Shown piece by piece: positions 821-36,496 of a DNA stretch of 36,698 nucleotides. The notes beneath the pieces are model-generated. The model ran no database searches. It saw only the letters and a list, made by a program, of their open reading frames with translations, and was not told where the DNA came from. Location of the stretch: the IMG/VR virus record IMGVR_UViG_3300027730_000071, positions 1 through 36,698 of that record; one strand, given 5' to 3'. The translations under genes were made by a program, and so were the position numbers. Numbering within the stretch: the stretch's first letter is position 1; each line of letters begins with the position of its first letter. Source of the DNA: a virus.

Positions 821-1912
821 ATGCAAACAATCGAAAGCCAAGCACTTGCAAAAATCGAAACGCAATCTTTTCAACCCACACCCGAACAGATGAACGCATG
901 GTCGGTAATGGTCCGCAAGAAAAATGAATTAACTCAAACCCTCACCACCGCAGAATTAGAACTCCAGGGTATTTTATTGTCCGTAAATGTGCAAGACCAC
1001 AAAGCAATTGATGAGGCACTTGCAACTTATCGTAAAAAACACGGTGAATTAAAAGAAAATCGTTTAACTTTTACTAGGCTTATTGAAGAAAAGTTGTTTG
1101 CTCCGCTTATGGCGTTTGAAAAACGCGCGGAGCCAAAAACAAATGAGCAGTATTTAAAATTAGATACCACATCACTTGAACTTAGAAAAGCAGCAAACGA
1201 AGCTGCCGCAAAAAAGCAAGCCTATGAAAATGAAAAAGCGCGATTTTTAGCACATTGCGCTAATGAGTTTATGAGGTTGGAGGCGCAGTATATAAACGAA
1301 CTGAATAATCAGATTGACACCACTTATTCAGCATTTTTAACCGCAGCAATTAATCCGCCACCCATAAGCAACGTTGAGGTAAATATGGGAGCCGTAAAAG
1401 TTGGTGCAATGTATAAGTTTGATGCTTCATTAATTAACAAAGAAGAAATGCAATCATTATATTTAACACTTACGCCACCAAACTACGCTGAATTGCTGGC
1501 AGATAAAATTGAAATGTTGCCGCAAGTGTTCGCAAATTATGAAATTGATTTGGCAAATGCAGTAGCAGCAATTGAAAGGCGTGAACTAGATGCAAAAATA
1601 CAGGCTCAAAAGGTTGCTGAAAAAATAGAGGCTGAAGCGAGTGTTAATAATCTTATTGCAACGGCATCCGCACCTCAAATTGAAACTGCAAAGATTAAAA
1701 AAGAATTGAAAATTGAGCCTATTAATTCTCAAGCATGGGCACAGTTAATTATGACACAATTTATTGCTAATTTGCCAACTCTTGTTTCATATTTACGTGT
1801 TAAGACTTGGGCGAACGTTTCAATTCAACAAATGGCAGATGCAATGGCAAAACACGCTACTGATACAGGTGAAACTTTTAAGGGGATTGTTTATACTGAA
1901 ATTTTAAAATGA
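821..1912 (+). CDS. Coiled-coil protein of the recombination block, function unknown
   Basis: A 363-residue, charged and largely helical protein. Residues about 30-160 are rich in K, E, A and Q with heptad-like spacing, suggesting a long coiled coil. A second helical part lies at about 230-300 (AAIERRELDAKIQAQKVAEKIEAEA). There is no signal peptide or membrane segment. It sits between the annealing protein and the nuclease, 8 bases after the first and overlapping the second by ATGA (1909-1912), so it is probably co-translated with them. Position and build recall the DUF1351-type proteins found beside phage annealases, but I see no diagnostic motif and that link is inference. Confidence 0.65.
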   Translation: MQTIESQALAKIETQSFQPTPEQMNAWSVMVRKKNELTQTLTTAELELQGILLSVNVQDHKAIDEALATYRKKHGELKENRLTFTRLIEEKLFAPLMAFEKRAEPKTNEQYLKLDTTSLELRKAANEAAAKKQAYENEKARFLAHCANEFMRLEAQYINELNNQIDTTYSAFLTAAINPPPISNVEVNMGAVKVGAMYKFDASLINKEEMQSLYLTLTPPNYAELLADKIEMLPQVFANYEIDLANAVAAIERRELDAKIQAQKVAEKIEAEASVNNLIATASAPQIETAKIKKELKIEPINSQAWAQLIMTQFIANLPTLVSYLRVKTWANVSIQQMADAMAKHATDTGETFKGIVYTEILK

Positions 1913-2487
1913 TACGTGTTAGCAATTTAAAATACTACTCCGATTTAGATTTTGATGAATACCTCGATATTAAGGGGTATTCATTCTCAGGAATTAAAAT
2001 GTTGGAATCTGGAATAGCAATCGTACCATCCGAAGGAATGAAACTTGGAACCCGCGTTCATAACTTTTTACTTGAGCCTCATAAATATGACCAAGTAGAT
2101 TATTCAATTGTTACTAAAATTGGAGGTGAATTGAAGAAGTTTCTAGGACCCGCAATTAAATTTCTTGAAAAAGAAGTTGCGTTTACTTGTAAAATGGAAT
2201 GTAACGGTATGCAAATGCAGTACAAAGGCCGCGCTGATTTACTTTATAAAGGCAAACTGATAATTGACTTAAAAGTTTTGGCTGGAACATTAAAGCCAGC
2301 CGTTGAGCGATTTGGATACGAAAGGCAGTTAAGCGGTTACGCAATTGCAACATCAATCAACAATATATTACTACTTTCTTACAATAAATCACTAAAGAAA
2401 GATAATATCGAACATCAAATGTTTTCACCAAATCAAGATTGGTGGATGTATGTAATAACTAAGTATGGGACACCATGCGTACAATAA
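1909..2487 (+). CDS. PD-(D/E)XK exonuclease, RecE/DUF3799-like
   Basis: A 192-residue nuclease-like protein. GTRVHNFLLEP at residues 47-57 matches the N-terminal signature of RecE-type exonucleases. The catalytic pattern follows: YKGRAD with Asp110, then IIDLK with Asp120 and Lys122, and finally YERQLSGYA with Gln140, the usual helix motif of the fold. Its expected role is to resect double-stranded ends so that the annealing protein at 135-812 can load, forming a two-component recombination system. The start overlaps the previous stop as ATGA, implying translational coupling. It is short for a RecE-type nuclease but holds every catalytic residue of the PD-(D/E)XK core. Confidence 0.78.
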   Translation: MIRVSNLKYYSDLDFDEYLDIKGYSFSGIKMLESGIAIVPSEGMKLGTRVHNFLLEPHKYDQVDYSIVTKIGGELKKFLGPAIKFLEKEVAFTCKMECNGMQMQYKGRADLLYKGKLIIDLKVLAGTLKPAVERFGYERQLSGYAIATSINNILLLSYNKSLKKDNIEHQMFSPNQDWWMYVITKYGTPCVQ

Positions 2488-2516
2488 TTAATATAAACCA
2501 ATAAAATAAAAATAAA

Positions 2517-2837
2517 ATGGCACTATTCGCAAATGTATCAATTGAATTAAGTAAGTTAAGGGAAGTATTTAAAGAAAACCCTAATCACTCTGCTTTTACA
2601 GTTCATGCAAACAAAAAAACTTATGTTAATCTTACAATTTGGAGCAATGATGATGTCGACCAATATGGCAACAATGTCTCTCTTCAATTGAATTCAAAAA
2701 AGGATTTTAGAGAATTAGAAGGTAAAGTGTATATTGGAAATGGTAAACGTGCAGGAACGCAGTCGCAAGCCGCATCCCCTAGCAAAAATTACCAAGCACC
2801 AACAGCCGCAAATGTGGAGGATGATTTACCTTTTTAA
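2517..2837 (+). CDS. Small single-stranded DNA-binding-like protein
   Basis: A 106-residue protein with a beta-rich first 75 residues (FTVHANKKTYVNLTIW, VSLQLNSKKDF, KVYIGNGKRAG), a disordered S/Q/A/P linker, and the terminal sequence EDDLPF. In bacterial SSB proteins the acidic DDxPF tip recruits repair and replication partners, while the preceding beta domain binds DNA. The domain is shorter than a classical SSB OB fold and I did not match a defined family, so the call rests mainly on the tip and on the neighbours (annealase, exonuclease, helicase, primase). It begins 29 bases after the nuclease gene. Confidence 0.7.
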   Translation: MALFANVSIELSKLREVFKENPNHSAFTVHANKKTYVNLTIWSNDDVDQYGNNVSLQLNSKKDFRELEGKVYIGNGKRAGTQSQAASPSKNYQAPTAANVEDDLPF

Positions 2838-2847
2838 TTAAAAAAAC

Positions 2848-2954
2848 AAAGTGGTTTAATCTCATATAGGTAGAATGAGAGGGCAGATATAGCCCGTGCG
2901 GAAGCATATCGAAACGCATCCGTTAGAATGTAGGTTCAAATCCTGCCCACTTTG
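2848..2954 (+). tRNA. tRNA-like element with unusual middle (possible type II or degenerate tRNA)
   Basis: AAAGTGG (2848-2854) pairs perfectly with CCACTTT (2947-2953) as a 7-bp acceptor stem, with G2954 as discriminator. GTAGG/CCTGC (closing at 2942-2946) forms a 5-bp T stem around the loop TTCAAAT. TCTCA/TGAGA with an enclosed GGTAGA looks like a D arm. The middle is odd: GGGC-AGATATA-GCCC would be a 4-bp anticodon stem with central triplet ATA (Tyr-like), but without the near-universal U33. It is followed by a long extra arm (GCGGA/TCCGT). At 107 bases it is long even for Leu, Ser or Tyr tRNAs. It may be a divergent phage tRNA or a decayed one; I do not assign an amino acid. CCA is not encoded. 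Confidence 0.5.
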
Positions 2955-2973
2955 CTAAAAAAAACCAATCACA

Positions 2974-4536
2974 TTGAAAAAACAACTATACGATTATCAA
3001 CAGATGCAAGTTGATGCGGCAATTCGTGCCACAAAAAAGCATAAAACAATACTTGTTCAAACTCCAACTGGAGGAGGCAAAACAGTCATGTTTAGTTTTA
3101 TTGCGCATCGTTTTATTTCAGCCACTACACAAGACGTTATAATTTACGTACATCGCCGCGAACTTGCAAAACAAACTAGGCAAACAATATTTGATACTTT
3201 TGGAATATCAGCACAATTAATTAGCGCAGGAATGCGAAATGTGCCAAAATCACGTATTTATATTGCAATGGTTGAAAGTGCTAAAAAGCGAATGCCATCA
3301 AACATTGGACTTGCAATTATTGACGAAGCACATATTGCATCACTTCATAAAGCACACACTTTTACTGAAAATGTTACAATTATAGGCTTTTCAGCCACTC
3401 CAATATCTGCTAATAAAAAGCAGATGTTAATAGATATTTATGAATTATTAATTCAAGGACCTCAAATAAAGGATTTAATTTCACGCGGTAAACTTTGCCA
3501 AAATATTACAATTGCACCGCAAGATGTTGTTAATAGAAAAGCGCTTGCTGTTAAAGGTGGCGATTTTAACAATAAGTTAATGGGCAATGAGTTTTCAAAA
3601 GCTAAACACGTTAAATCAACGCTTACTTATTATGAGAAGTTTTTACTTAATAAAAAAACACTTATTTTCAATTGCAACATTGCCCATTCAATTGAGGTAA
3701 CACGTTACTTTAAGGCAGCAGGATATAATATAAGACATTTAGATTCTGAGAATTGCACAGACTTTGAACGGGAAGAAACCTTACAGTGGCTAAAAAATAC
3801 TCCAAATGCAATTCTTTCAAGCGTTGCAATTTTAACAACTGGATTTGATGAACCGAGTGTAGAGGGTATTATTGTAAACCGTTCAATCATGTCACTTTCA
3901 CTTTGGCTCCAAATTACAGGGAGAGGTGGACGTATTCATCCAAACAAAGATTTGTTTATTATTATAGATATGGGAGCCAACGCCGTAAACTTAGGTGATT
4001 GGTCGGACGATAGAGATTGGATAGATATTTTTGAAAACCCCCCAACTGCCAGTAAAACTATGGGAGTTGCTCCTTGTAAATCTTGCCCACAATGTGAAGC
4101 AATTATTTCAGCACAATCAAATGATTGTAAATATTGCGGGTATCAGTACCCTGCAAAAAAAGTTGCTGAAGAAGTATTGGTAAGTGAAGAATATAGGGTG
4201 CTTACAAAAGGAATTGATGTATCCCGCCTTATTACCTCAGCAAATAATAAAGGATATAAAGAATATGCAAGTTATTATGAAATTGGTAAGCGGTTAATTA
4301 AGAATGCGCCGACAGGTACTAGCCAAAGTACAATTGAACAAACTTATGTTTTGGAAGCCCGTAAATGGTGCGAAGCGAAAGGGAAAAAGTATAACCCATT
4401 TCACAAAAAACTTATAAAGGAATTTATTGAAGCAGAAATTAGTAAATTGCAAGCCCCACCGCCAACCCAAAATTTACAACCACAACTAACTACACTCCAA
4501 CCAATCACTAATATACTCCCGACATGGCTGCAATGA
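2974..4536 (+). CDS. Superfamily 2 DEAH-box helicase with C-terminal zinc-ribbon
   Basis: A 520-residue ATP-dependent helicase. Motifs in order: Walker A TPTGGGKT (30-37), DEAH (117-120), SAT (140-142), and motif VI QITGRGGR (313-320). A cysteine cluster follows at C368, C371, C374, C385 and C388, a zinc-ribbon-like insert, then a helical tail of about 120 residues ending in a P/Q/T-rich stretch. Role: unwinding DNA or remodelling during phage replication or recombination, similar to RecQ-like or UvsW-like phage helicases. The start is TTG at 2974, since no ATG precedes the MKKQLYDYQQMQ-type N-terminus, which is normal for the family. It overlaps the next gene by 13 bases and lies 19 bases after the tRNA-like element. 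Confidence 0.88.
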   Translation: MKKQLYDYQQMQVDAAIRATKKHKTILVQTPTGGGKTVMFSFIAHRFISATTQDVIIYVHRRELAKQTRQTIFDTFGISAQLISAGMRNVPKSRIYIAMVESAKKRMPSNIGLAIIDEAHIASLHKAHTFTENVTIIGFSATPISANKKQMLIDIYELLIQGPQIKDLISRGKLCQNITIAPQDVVNRKALAVKGGDFNNKLMGNEFSKAKHVKSTLTYYEKFLLNKKTLIFNCNIAHSIEVTRYFKAAGYNIRHLDSENCTDFEREETLQWLKNTPNAILSSVAILTTGFDEPSVEGIIVNRSIMSLSLWLQITGRGGRIHPNKDLFIIIDMGANAVNLGDWSDDRDWIDIFENPPTASKTMGVAPCKSCPQCEAIISAQSNDCKYCGYQYPAKKVAEEVLVSEEYRVLTKGIDVSRLITSANNKGYKEYASYYEIGKRLIKNAPTGTSQSTIEQTYVLEARKWCEAKGKKYNPFHKKLIKEFIEAEISKLQAPPPTQNLQPQLTTLQPITNILPTWLQ

Positions 4537-32852: not shown

Positions 32853-33689
32853 TCAAAACAATTTGGTTTTTTGTTCTCGTTCCCATTCAAGTATTCGTTT
32901 TAATCCTTTGTTGTAGTATTCCTTTTCTTGCTCCATTACAATATATTTTCTGTTTGTTTCTAAACAAGCTATTGCAGTTGTAAATACTCCAGCAGTATTG
33001 TCAAGTACAATATCATTTTCATCTGTGTATGTTTTAATTAAATACTCAAATAATTCAGTTGGCTTTTGTGTTGGGTGTATTGCTTTTGAGCCAATCACAT
33101 TTGGGTATTCTAAAACATTGTGCGGAAATCCTGTAAATGCTTCGTATTCCACTCCAATTTGGTTGGGTCTTGCACCCATCATTTCTCCGTGTGCTACGGC
33201 AGTTACTTTTTTGTTTCCAATACTAACTATTCCTTGTGGGTTATATCTCATTCTCTTTTCTCCAAGTTGTGATATATGCCCCATTGGTGCTTTGCTAAAT
33301 ACACAACATTCTTCAATGGCTGTCATTGGTCTATTTTTGCTATGTTGCCATCCATTCGGTTTGCTTTTCTTCCAATACCAGCAATACTTAAATAATTTAA
33401 AGTTTGAGTTTATCAATACAGTTGTAAATGGCTGTGAAGCGGCAAGTATTATTACTCCATTAGGCTTTATTATCCTTTCGTATTGCTCCCAAAGTTTATC
33501 AAATGGTAGTATCACATCCCATTTACAAGCAATAGTTCCGTAAGGCAAATCGCAAAGTATCATATCAATACTTTCATCAGCTATCAATGGCATCAATTCT
33601 AAACAATCTCCTAAGTGTTCACTACTTCGATTAGTGCTTATACTATACCATTCTTTTTGTTCGTCTGTATCTAAGTTAAAATTTCCCAC
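32853..33689 (-). CDS. DNA amino-methyltransferase (N6-adenine or N4-cytosine type)
   Basis: A 278-residue DNA methyltransferase of the N6_N4_Mtase family. The catalytic motif IV is DLPYG (47-51), followed by the target region and then HPTQKPTELFEYLI and motif I VLDNTAGVFTTAIACLETN. That order (IV before I) is the beta class. Motif I normally reads DPFxGSGTT or DNxxGSGTT; here the glycine pair has become G-V-F, which may weaken cofactor binding. A stand-alone enzyme with no restriction partner nearby suggests a protective phage modification. It is flanked by elements a and b. Confidence 0.85.
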   Translation of the reverse strand: MGNFNLDTDEQKEWYSISTNRSSEHLGDCLELMPLIADESIDMILCDLPYGTIACKWDVILPFDKLWEQYERIIKPNGVIILAASQPFTTVLINSNFKLFKYCWYWKKSKPNGWQHSKNRPMTAIEECCVFSKAPMGHISQLGEKRMRYNPQGIVSIGNKKVTAVAHGEMMGARPNQIGVEYEAFTGFPHNVLEYPNVIGSKAIHPTQKPTELFEYLIKTYTDENDIVLDNTAGVFTTAIACLETNRKYIVMEQEKEYYNKGLKRILEWEREQKTKLF

Positions 33690-33750
33690 GCTTTTTTTAT
33701 TTAAAATTTTTGTTTCGTTCTTCGTATCAAGTTTCTCCTAAATTAACCGC

Positions 33751-33833
33751 ACCAGCAGGTAACACCACCTATACGCAAGTTTTGTGAAAAACAAAACCTG
33801 ACGTATAGCTGTAAACGTTATAGGCAATAGGGC
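33751..33833. repeat. Palindromic boundary element b (attC-like)
   Basis: GGTAAC at 33758-33763, then CTATACG-CAA-GTTTTGT, loop GAAAA, ACAAAAC-CTGA-CGTATAG (33769-33808), then GTTATAGGCAATAGGG (33817-33832). The AAC...GTT ends pair, and the arms differ by one extra base, the style of an integron attC. The 16-base end faces the Mom-like gene. Confidence 0.6.
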
Positions 33834-33892
33834 AGACGTTCTTCGTTTCAACATTTGTGGAAGAAAAAAAAGAAAAAAAGCCCACCGCACTT

Positions 33893-34582
33893 TTAAAACA
33901 TTTTAAGTTGAGCCGTTTCAATCGGCATAAATTCTTGATTTGGTTTGTCGCTATGTTCATTGTTAAATGGTGCTTTTTGTTCCCCTTTTGGATATGGTGC
34001 TTCCTGCCATATTGTTTTTATTTTATCATCGTAAATTATCAAATATCGGTGCTTTCTGCTTTTATCCCTCCATTCTCCATCAAGGTGTCGGCATTTGCCC
34101 CTTTGCAATTTCTTGAATGTTCCATCGTGTTGGTCAATAAAAAAATCTTTCTTTTGGTCGGTCAATCCGTAGTATTTAAAATTACAAGCCTGATAAATAT
34201 ATCCTTGATGGTGGTCGCTATCTGCATAAGTCAATAATGCAACTACCTTTTCAATTTTGCGAAGTAATTTTATACTACCTGATAAAAAGAATGAAGTAAG
34301 ATTTTTTTCGTGCCTATGTGGGTTCATACACAATCTGCCAAGTTCATAAAATCCTTCAAGTTTATAAGCATCAATAGCAAAGCATCCTTTCACTCCTTCT
34401 TTAGCTGAATTTGTATGAAACACAATTACACCAATAAGCAATTTACTTTGTGCATCAAATAAGCCAAAGTTTATACCGCTTCTAAAATTACCTTCTTCGT
34501 GCAAGTAATGGTATTCATCAAGCAGTTTCTTTGCAGTATTTCTGCTTATTTTTTCAATAAAATAATTATCCTTTAATGCCAT
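33893..34582 (-). CDS. Mom-like DNA modification protein
   Basis: A 229-residue protein matching the phage Mu Mom family, a GNAT-fold group that adds a carbamoylmethyl-type group to adenine and shields DNA from restriction. Shared features: the N-terminal HYLHEEG (25-31), GINFGLFD and LLIGVIVF strands, FYELGRLCMNP (78-88), and the signature TYADSDHHQGYIYQACNF (118-135) followed by YYGL. In Mom the equivalent S/TYAD..H.G.IYQA.N block is strictly conserved. The C-terminal 45 residues are polar and variable. It is flanked by inward-facing GTTATAGGCARTAGGG repeats. Function by family; actual modification untested. Confidence 0.75.
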   Translation of the reverse strand: MALKDNYFIEKISRNTAKKLLDEYHYLHEEGNFRSGINFGLFDAQSKLLIGVIVFHTNSAKEGVKGCFAIDAYKLEGFYELGRLCMNPHRHEKNLTSFFLSGSIKLLRKIEKVVALLTYADSDHHQGYIYQACNFKYYGLTDQKKDFFIDQHDGTFKKLQRGKCRHLDGEWRDKSRKHRYLIIYDDKIKTIWQEAPYPKGEQKAPFNNEHSDKPNQEFMPIETAQLKMF

Positions 34583-34638
34583 CGCTTCTTTTTTTCTTTT
34601 TTTTCTTTAGTGCTTCGATTAAACATTCTGCTAAAAAT

Positions 34639-34748
34639 CCCTACTGCCTATAACAGCGGTTTTGTGCTATTTGCCCCATTAAGTTTGTTGGTGAATTGAA
34701 GCCTTGTGCAAGGGTCAAACAGACACAAAGCCGCAAAATGTTAGGTGC
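34639..34748. repeat. Palindromic boundary element c (attC-like)
   Basis: On the minus strand: CCTAACATTTTGCGGCTTTG (34745 downward) pairs imperfectly with CACAAAACCGCTGTTATAGG (34666 to 34647), about 57 bases apart, ending GTTATAGGCAGTAGGG (34654 to 34639). ACCTAAC fits the attC core RYYYAAC. It ends 17 bases before the neighbouring methyltransferase stop. Confidence 0.55.
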
Positions 34749-34764
34749 AATGTCAGCGGACACC

Positions 34765-35445
34765 CTAAAACATTCGGAGTTGGCTGGCAAAATCTTTAAA
34801 ACGCTTTTCTTGTGCTTCATAATAATCTTTGTTAAGTTCAAAACCTGTAAAGTTGAAATTTCCTTTAGCACAAGCAATTCGGCTACTTCCAGAACCTAAA
34901 TGAGTGTCTAAAATCAAATTGCCTTGCTCTGCATAATTTTGTAAAATCCAATCGTAAATATTTATATGCTTTTGGCAAGGATGTATTTTGCCTTTAAATG
35001 TATAATCAACTTTCAATTTGCCGTCAAATCCATTCATATTCCCAATATCTGAAAACCGTATCATTTTACATTTGCCATCAAAAGAAGTCCAAGCCAATTC
35101 AAATTCATCAAATTCTCGTTTACCTAAATATCCAGCTTTTATAACTGATTTGTCCCAGCATATCCATTGGCGTTTTATTGGCAAATTAAAGTAGTTTCCA
35201 CCCCACACAATTTGATTTTTAGAAACCCTAAATAATTGTTCCCAATATTCGTCTGTTGGTCTTTCTTTGTCCCATTCGGCTATTTCAATTCCGTAAGGTG
35301 GGTCAACAATAGCTAAATCAAAATGATTATCAGAAAAGCGTTTTAAACCCTCTACACAATCCTCGTTATACACCACAGAAGGCACTGCACCTAACACGGT
35401 ATTGGCAAAATTGCCGTTCTGTTTTTCAATTAAACTTTCGTCCAT
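34765..35445 (-). CDS. DNA amino-methyltransferase, second copy type
   Basis: A 226-residue beta-class DNA methyltransferase. Motif IV is DPPYGI (48-53); NQIVWGGNYFNLP (about 77-89) and KIHPCQKH follow; motif I near the end is ILDTHLGSGSSRIACAKGN, complete with the G-S-G core. It differs in sequence from the enzyme at 32853-33689, so target sites probably differ. N6-adenine is the likelier product because of the DPPY motif. No restriction endonuclease lies beside it. Elements c and d bound it. Confidence 0.87.
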   Translation of the reverse strand: MDESLIEKQNGNFANTVLGAVPSVVYNEDCVEGLKRFSDNHFDLAIVDPPYGIEIAEWDKERPTDEYWEQLFRVSKNQIVWGGNYFNLPIKRQWICWDKSVIKAGYLGKREFDEFELAWTSFDGKCKMIRFSDIGNMNGFDGKLKVDYTFKGKIHPCQKHINIYDWILQNYAEQGNLILDTHLGSGSSRIACAKGNFNFTGFELNKDYYEAQEKRFKDFASQLRMF

Positions 35446-35472
35446 AATTTCAACTTTTGTTTTTCAATTTAG

Positions 35473-35518
35473 CTTTCGGTTCGGCAACTTCGCCAATACC
35501 CATACGTTACAGGCAATA
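35473..35518. repeat. Palindromic boundary element d (short)
   Basis: GGCAAC (35483-35488), CGCCAATACCCATAC, then GTTACAGGCAATAC (35506-35519), ending directly at the stop codon of the C5 methyltransferase. The GTTACAGGCARTAC end is also in element e, facing it from the other side of the gene. Confidence 0.5.
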
Positions 35519-36496
35519 CTACGACTGTGCATAATTTGAACATTCTACTTCTATGAATGAAAAAATATGTGCAATAGTATCAATTGTCCAGCCGTCACCC
35601 AATAAACAAGCTGCTTCATTTCGTTTTAGTATGCTTGTATATCCATTGGGTACTGTTTGTAATCGCTCCATTTCGTTTTGATTAAGTTTTCTAATATCGC
35701 CATCAATAAAATTTGCCCTCATTTCATCTTCGGTCATTTTAGAATACTTTTCAAATGTTTCTTTGTCTTTGAAAATTACATTTATAAATCCTTGTATCAT
35801 ATATCGTCTTAATGATGAAAATGTACTGCCCGGATTTCTACTTTCACTTTCAAGTAAGCATCTTGCTTTTAATCTGTCAGTATATCCATTATCCAATAAA
35901 TCTTGAAACTTTATTTTTTTGTTTCTTGGTTGTGGTATCATTGAATATCTATTGCCAAATAAATCAAAACTTCCCGGACCTATATTAGTCCAATAACTTC
36001 TTTGTCTTAATTGCCCTGATACTAATTCACTATTTATGTTTGTTGGATAAGTTCCAAGCATTTCGCTTATTGCTGCATAACTATAATCATCCATTGCTAC
36101 ATTTTCAAGTAAAAAGTATTTTGGTTCACATTCTTTTAAAAGTCTTAAATACTCATAAAACAATCCTGATTTTTCGCCTTGCAATCCTAATTTTTCTTTA
36201 TTAGCTGAACTAAAATCTTGACAAGGACTTCCACCAATCAATAAATCAATTTTAGGCAAATCACTTGCTTTTACATCTAATACACTACCTAATTGTATTG
36301 TATTGGGGAAATTGTGTTGCGTTACTTTTATTGCGTGTGGTTTTATTTCACTTGCAAAGTATTGATTAACTTTTATCCCTGCCTTTTGTAAAGCAATTTG
36401 ACCACAAGACATACCATCGAAAAGAGATAGTACATTTAAACCCGTACTGCCTGTAACACGTGTTTGGCAAAATGGGGGCTGACTGCTTTCTATCAT
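35519..36496 (-). CDS. C5 cytosine DNA methyltransferase, Dnmt3-like
   Basis: A 325-residue C5 methyltransferase. Motif I is LSLFDGMSCG (23-32), motif IV GGSPCQDFS with catalytic Cys92, motif VI ENV (131-133), and motif VIII QLRQR (162-166). The wording around IV and X (ASE, GGSPCQDFSSANK, GLFYEYLRLL, LLENVA) is closer to the Dnmt3 branch than to Dcm/HhaI. It transfers a methyl group to C5 of cytosine in DNA. The first 18 codons lie inside repeat element e; ATG 36496 is the only ATG before motif I, so the repeat seems to supply the start. No matching restriction enzyme is seen. Confidence 0.88.
   Translation of the reverse strand: MIESSQPPFCQTRVTGSTGLNVLSLFDGMSCGQIALQKAGIKVNQYFASEIKPHAIKVTQHNFPNTIQLGSVLDVKASDLPKIDLLIGGSPCQDFSSANKEKLGLQGEKSGLFYEYLRLLKECEPKYFLLENVAMDDYSYAAISEMLGTYPTNINSELVSGQLRQRSYWTNIGPGSFDLFGNRYSMIPQPRNKKIKFQDLLDNGYTDRLKARCLLESESRNPGSTFSSLRRYMIQGFINVIFKDKETFEKYSKMTEDEMRANFIDGDIRKLNQNEMERLQTVPNGYTSILKRNEAACLLGDGWTIDTIAHIFSFIEVECSNYAQS

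Follow-up and report, generated by a model that had tools for sequence, protein, structure and literature searches.

A conserved tRNA-shaped RNA, very probably non-decoding, in three lineages of bacterial viruses

An uncultured bacterial virus, represented by a 36.7-kb virus record that we analysed as one stretch of 36,698 nucleotides (hereafter the window), carries a tRNA-like element of 108 nt which is very probably a conserved, structured and non-decoding RNA. Judged by comparison of its sequence with relatives, a tRNA shell, i.e., acceptor stem, D loop and T arm, encloses a core foreign to tRNAs, in which a D stem of 6 bp and fixed linkers are combined with two hairpins, the first short and with no usable anticodon, the second with a large loop. 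The element was found in four records belonging to three lineages, otherwise very different (the window with L002, L074, and L225), which we group as family A. Its shape being kept in at least these three, it probably functions as an RNA and is not a tRNA in decay.

The element is housed in the intergenic interval 2838–2973, between the SSB-like and helicase genes, which is where an initial annotation of the window had placed it; it starts 9 nt past the stop of the former and ends 19 nt ahead of the latter (Table 1). Open reading frames overlapping it are all 46 aa or shorter, so that no plausible gene is overlapped. The parts named in the initial annotation were recovered with small amendments: the perfect acceptor stem, first read as 7 bp, gains an eighth pair, C2847-G2954; the T arm is intact, with four Watson-Crick pairs and one G-U; the non-standard loop at the anticodon position has G at the place of U33; and the extra arm is present. 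To these we add the 6-bp D arm, whose loop has a normal-looking GGTAGA, the 5-nt and 6-nt linkers, and the start at 2847.

The label SSB for the upstream gene derives from its acidic tail and gene context, with no named family behind it. The helicase is nearest, among the phage matches listed, to those of Cellulophaga, Flavobacterium and Nonlabens phages (33–37% identity), which suggests that the host is probably a member of the Bacteroidota. A protein search of genome contigs for the neighbouring primase gave no match. Elsewhere in the window, a DNA methyltransferase gene cluster with a Mom-like DNA modification gene occupies 32853–36496 (−). Use of the element as an integration site, i.e., a tRNA 3′ end serving as att, is unlikely, because none of the 20 window proteins scanned matched a PHROG named as an integrase and because the tRNA-like gene is complete and surrounded by genes of replication.

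Table 1. Positions in the window of the tRNA-like element, its parts and the two flanking genes
Feature	Positions	Strand	Basis or remark
SSB-like gene, 106 aa, acidic tail ending DDLPF	2517–2837	+	PHROG 24909; directly upstream
Whole tRNA-like element	2847–2954	+	Fold; covariation; model match 128.6 bits (element used in building the model)
Acceptor stem, 5′ strand, 8 bp with 2947–2954	2847–2854	+	Outermost pair is −1:73; paired in 3/3 lineages
Linker TTTAA, consensus TTYRR	2855–2859	+	Sequence comparison
D arm, 6-bp stem and 9-nt loop, ATAGGTAGA	2860–2880	+	Loop ATWGGTAGA in all
Hairpin h1 at the anticodon position, GGGC-AGATATA-GCCC, without U33	2881–2895	+	Stem GGGY/GCCC nearly invariant
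GT joint, invariant	2896–2897	+	Sequence comparison; in L225 GT belonged to the search pattern
Hairpin h2 (extra or variable arm), 5 bp, 16-nt loop AG...GCA	2898–2923	+	3/5 pairs doubly changed
Linker TAGAAT, consensus YAGRAT	2924–2929	+	Sequence comparison
T arm GTAGG-TTCAAAT-CCTGC	2930–2946	+	Fold and sequence comparison
Acceptor stem, 3′ strand	2947–2954	+	Fold and sequence comparison
Superfamily 2 helicase gene	2974–4536	+	Pfam ResIII, DEAD, Helicase_C; directly downstream

One fold, tRNA-like and with five helices, dominates at 2847–2954. The minimum free energy over 2846–2956 is −35.4 kcal/mol against a shuffle mean of −22.9 (z −3.8; 1/200 shuffles as good), and for 2848–2954 none of 200 shuffles folds as well. 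The L225 element folds mildly better than its shuffles (z −1.8; 8/200 as good); the minimum-energy folds of L225 and L074 deviate slightly, in L225 around h2, and their centroids agree. ARAGORN, named in the initial annotation as a check, called no gene in the window, neither the element nor a tmRNA, and Rfam gave no match over the window at gathering score, tmRNA included. The Rfam tRNA model (RF00005) scores the element at 19.4 bits, below its gathering score of 29 (E = 0.0035 with the whole record searched), the L225 element at 22.4 bits, and the L074 element at 15.3 bits as a partial match only.

The closest copy, in L002, differs from that of the window at 1/108 positions and follows an upstream block that is nearly the same (6/579 and 1/321 differences), while the helicase gene right 3′ of the element differs at 31/90. 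A mosaic junction thus lies at window positions 2974–3063, where near-identity to L002 runs through the element and the 19 nt after it, then gives way immediately to helicase divergence. The comparison of window and L002 sequences is, as such, uninformative on selection. L074 is a distant relative (helicase 42% identical, SSB-like protein 30%), obtained from a tRNA-shell scan of 143 sequences amounting to just over 1 Mb. Its element starts 7 nt past the stop of the SSB-like gene, on the same strand, and has the same architecture as that of the window with only 9/38 acceptor, D and h2 stem positions in common. Since the scan demanded a paired acceptor and T arm, the D, h1 and h2 pairings of L074 are the independent ones. 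Shell scanning of related and other phage loci, which allowed at most one acceptor mismatch, demanded a perfect T arm and a D-loop motif, and excluded the tRNA-bearing loci L049–L062 (n = 14), returned eight matches, six of them copies of the window or L074 elements and two that look like chance in AT-rich DNA.

L225 came from a later pattern scan of viral contigs in which 24 loci matched. Its element is the sole DNA similarity to the window found by blastn (E 4.6e-10), and tblastx gave no match to L225 among the 30 matches listed; proteins of the record include an SSB of the classical type and a connector (PHROG 578). Some of the second linker and of the T arm was fixed by the pattern, together with the h1 3′ strand and its GT; independent of the search are the acceptor, the first linker, the D stem and its loop, the h1 5′ strand and h2. 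A model built without L225 scored it at 90.6 bits (E 2.4e-20), the next best of the 67 sources searched, many of them rich in real tRNAs, reaching 26.5. Around the L225 element, 861 nt of its strand are free of ORFs of 60 aa, and the SSB gene follows 826 nt downstream on the same strand. Directly downstream of the element, at L225:10408–10459 (−), is a 52-nt tRNA-like sequence which seems to lack a T arm and scores 27.6 bits to the tRNA model.

The family was sparse in the other searches. Among 39 loci with a related SSB-like gene (L010 being the record of L002), the stretches inspected held an element downstream only in the L002 record, and model R1 found no further copy at the other 38. Pattern scans matching 4 loci and 15 loci each contained only L006, again the L002 record, and those matching 12 loci and 20 loci each contained only L006 and L148, the latter being the L074 record. 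A pattern scan of genome contigs matched 5 loci with no family member, one of the five being a canonical tRNA-Arg. Model R1 gave no match at E ≤ 1e-4 in 395 whole genomes of the phylum of G003, a result which, having no positive control, shows little. With blastn against phage records, the window element found only short matches of at most 26 nt in 12 records, some at annotated tRNA-Met genes, the L225 element only T-arm and acceptor matches in 8 records, and the L074 element none; blastn against plasmids gave no match.

Compensatory changes in the stems of relatives were the test set by the initial annotation, and they are present. With a segmentation set explicitly by hand, 28/28 pairs are intact in every one of the three lineages; 17 have changed on both sides, 2 on one side only, and 9 are invariant. 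Double changes are concentrated in the acceptor (7/8) and D stem (6/6), followed by h2 (3/5), T (1/5) and h1 (0/4). An automated count, which takes only the two outer h2 pairs because MAFFT misplaced a gap in h2, finds 100/100 cells paired over 25 pairs in the four-row alignment and 14 pairs double-changed; none of 500 shuffles is as high, and slid controls of the same count are 39–48% paired.

Swapping 3′ strands between lineages separates the helices further. Swapped acceptor strands pair at only 18/48 positions and D-stem strands at 12/36, against 24/24 and 18/18 with their own partners, whereas the swap leaves h1 intact (24/24) and T nearly so (28/30), and as such h1 and T are supported by conservation and not by covariation. 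On these sequence counts h2 is intermediate between the two kinds (23/30). Linkers, D loop, h1 stem, joint and T arm are identical between lineages at 38–42/47 positions, h2 loop ends uncounted, and the acceptor, D and h2 stems at just 9–15/38. The h2 loops measure 16, 19 and 18 nt, with ends fixed as AG...GCA. A fixed core with varying stems is the pattern expected where the three-dimensional core of an RNA matters. A kissing interaction between the loops was rejected as a shared feature: complementarity between the h1 loop (GATAT) and the h2 loop (ATATC) exists in the window, and by eye it is missing from L074 and L225.

These counts bear on the origins that the initial annotation had offered. 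Decay is ruled out, because all 28 pairs are kept, 17 of them double-changed (14 of 25 in the automated count), and linkers, D loop, T loop and the h1 stem are nearly fixed; a tRNA pseudogene is likewise rejected on the unbroken stems of the relatives. A related reading, in which a former phage tRNA with inserts is drifting and is common to these records only through recent exchange, could draw on the inserts or deviant loops in tRNA-like genes of other phages in the set, and on the abrupt end of the shared window and L002 block, which does indicate exchange. It is scarcely credible for the three divergent lineages together, where 17 pairs are compensated and none is broken. A tRNA with an inserted segment is possible as the origin, given the hairpin inserts in tRNA-like genes of further phages in the set, and it misdescribes the present conserved RNA. 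The remaining suggestion, a structured RNA using a tRNA shell, is the one that gains support, shell and fold being preserved across the three lineages.

Little in the element is suited to decoding. The h1 loops are AGATATA, AAAGCA and GACCACA, without U at 33, without a common triplet and in one case of six bases, on a stem of 4 bp; a canonical anticodon arm has a 5-bp stem and a 7-nt loop with U33. The canonical 5-bp T stem with a TTCRANY-type loop after the acceptor is found in all four records. Each lineage has its own −1:73 pair (C:G, G:C and U:A), and since acceptor sequence and residue 73 differ per lineage, no common synthetase identity can be read from them. It is still conceivable, if very unlikely, that the element is a real tRNA, charged and read through its odd anticodon loop or after partial removal of the h2 loop. 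The tRNA-like elbow motifs would fit, as would L225, where A-CCA follows a 7-bp acceptor as in a charged tRNA, and allo-tRNAs of different structure are described as functioning in translation (PMC7609411). This reading must contend with the h1 loops, with h2 loops of 16–19 nt that start AG, and with acceptor ends and a residue 73 that vary by lineage and are pairable in all.

Among known tRNAs, the class II molecules (Leu, Ser) share with the element their five helices, GGTAGA D loop and T arm, and have a D stem of 3–4 bp; the element differs in its 6-bp D stem, 4-bp stem at the anticodon position, missing U33, h2 loop of 16–19 nt and long linkers. tRNA-Sec has a 6-bp D stem and a D loop of about 4 nt. 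All lineages resemble it in their 13-bp (8+5) acceptor branch, 6-bp D stem and long arm ahead of the T arm, and depart from it in the 9-nt D loop, the 4-bp stem at the anticodon position, the 6-nt linker before the T stem and the lack of a UCA anticodon in all three h1 loops.

The nearest published kind, as far as its description goes, is the group of irregular allo-tRNA-like RNAs of soil metatranscriptomes (PMC7609411). These are reported to have a five-stem junction and a −1 base, to occur in polycistrons (Mukai et al. 2017, via PMC7609411), and to remain uncharged by E. coli enzymes (PMC7609411). Compared by description only, they share with the element a tRNA shell with an extra stem, −1 pairing and the company of other irregular tRNAs; they differ in having 8/4 or 9/4 acceptor branches against 8/5, and an extra loop in the gap between acceptor and D stem, where the element has only a 5-nt linker, its own extra hairpin lying between the D and T arms; no phage origin is given for them in that description. 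Allo-tRNAs are defined there by a 12-bp acceptor branch, 8/4 or 9/3 (PMC7609411), and the element, with 8/5 in all lineages and its extra hairpin elsewhere, is for these reasons not filed with them. tRNA-Other of Bacillus cereus, described as a pseudo-tRNA recruited to regulation (PMC3399842), offers a likeness by description, as a tRNA-like RNA outside translation, and differs as a single bacterial locus inside a larger regulatory RNA. In the literature covered, i.e., titles and the beginnings of abstracts, with most subscription papers outside this scope, there was no report of the element or of families of non-decoding phage tRNA-like RNAs.

Our best explanation, to which we give a little short of an even chance as a whole, is a non-decoding tRNA mimic that is excised and acts in trans, with a defence target leading. 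The RNA would be made as part of an early replication transcript, since the element begins only 9 nt after the SSB-like gene and no promoter was recognised between them with a sigma-70 or a Bacteroidota pattern; no intrinsic terminator was found within 2400–3100. Host RNase P and the tRNA 3′-end enzymes would then recognise elbow and acceptor and cut the RNA out, as suggested by the intactness of both and the missing room for a promoter, and the product, of about 110 nt, would persist as a stable RNA. It would not decode, and would act by occupying a protein that binds tRNA shells. Excision and action in trans, taken by themselves and argued from sequence, seem to us slightly more probable than the contrary.

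The same cuts could also serve in cis: RNase P and RNase Z would sever the polycistronic early mRNA at the tRNA shell, between the SSB-like and helicase genes, so that the 3′ end of the SSB message would be both defined and protected and the excised RNA left idle. The position of the element 9 nt (window and L002) and 7 nt (L074) past the SSB-like stop, on the same strand, favours such a signal, and what keeps it alive is that in L011, L012, L013 and L014, close SSB relatives without the element, a terminator-like hairpin fills its place at that junction. We nevertheless regard a purely cis role as unlikely and prefer trans action, because the L225 element lies away from gene ends and because the core is fixed beyond the needs of cutting: a bare acceptor and T arm would be enough, and the fixed h1 stem, joint, linkers and h2 loop ends ask for more. 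The L225 stretch free of 60-aa ORFs, with its second irregular tRNA-like sequence, suits a trans-acting RNA better than a signal in a single mRNA.

For a mimic acting in trans the target may be a host tRNA-targeting defence nuclease or toxin, our leading candidate. This step is a guess, and a doubtful one, drawn by analogy from reports, as far as the parts consulted describe them, that phage tRNAs counter tRNA-cutting defences, i.e., VapC, PrrC and retron effectors (PMC11555353, PMC10264068). The element shares with those tRNAs its carriage by phages and a possible counter-defence role; they are described as decoding, replacing or resisting the loss of host tRNAs (PMC10264068, PMC11555353), whereas an element without an anticodon could only be a mimic or decoy. 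A mimic could equally be aimed outside defence, at EF-Tu, a tRNA-modifying enzyme, a synthetase or the ribosome, redirecting host translation, or could prime replication. The retained tRNA elbow agrees with this, as does the company of early replication genes in the window, L002 and L074 and the location on the SSB strand in L225; nothing specific points to any of the listed targets, however, and in the case of EF-Tu the 8+5 bp acceptor branch matches that of tRNA-Sec, a poor ligand of ordinary EF-Tu. Such a non-defence mimic we consider improbable, to the same degree as the cis signal.

Other phages in the set carry irregular tRNA-like genes of their own. The tRNA model, run on 120 virus records reached mostly through helicase and SSB searches, gave 15 above-cut-off matches in 12 records, six of them forming three near-identical pairs. 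ARAGORN assigned an amino acid to 3/15, the rest being '???' or uncalled, as against 55/55 of the tRNAs listed for tRNA-bearing phage loci found by pattern, which makes deviant genes the usual kind among tRNA-like genes of this phage group. Several, though not all, lie near SSB-like genes on the same strand. Near the SSB-like gene of L074 are a 70-nt gene at 951–1020 (+), called tRNA-??? by ARAGORN, and another of about 117 nt with an extra hairpin at approximately 1870–1996 (+).

A second design, of about 92 nt with a D-loop hairpin insert and a short anticodon loop, occurs at L196:1501–1592 (+) and L044:395–486 (−); by eye its stems have changed on both sides, and it seems conserved. A further group (L239–L243, L248 and L249, from 1501 onward; L185:1501–1639; L198:1501–1590) has acceptors close to AGTCAGG...CCTGACT, a Leu-like D arm and anticodon regions that are scrambled or carry inserts, with several in a row in record G484; a search for a host tRNA source of these shells gave no match in 198 genomes. 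In L207, a permuted tmRNA (RF04321, 55 bits) at 3005–3315 (−) lies 0.6 kb from an irregular tRNA-like gene. In the cultured Klebsiella phages KP8 and phi1_146050, a tRNA-shell element with several hairpins, about 114 nt long, lacks annotation (L262:313–426 and L263:309–425, +); one of its stems differs between the two phages and pairs in both, and in KP8 an annotated tRNA-OTHER is near it.

The reason for tRNA genes in phages has been under debate for decades, and to our knowledge nearly all answers presuppose decoding. A conserved tRNA shape that does not decode parts shape from decoding, and would make the non-translational hypotheses testable with one molecule. Given that ARAGORN and the Rfam cut-off both miss the element, such RNAs may be common and unseen, and the cultured Klebsiella phages, with a different but comparable element, provide a laboratory entry. 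We put forward, as a speculation that may well prove too broad, that family A represents a new class of non-decoding tRNA mimics, encoded by phages and moved horizontally among unrelated ones, and is part of a wider and largely unannotated repertoire of tRNA-shell RNAs with altered anticodon regions, which would be carried in early operons and would blunt tRNA-directed host defences.
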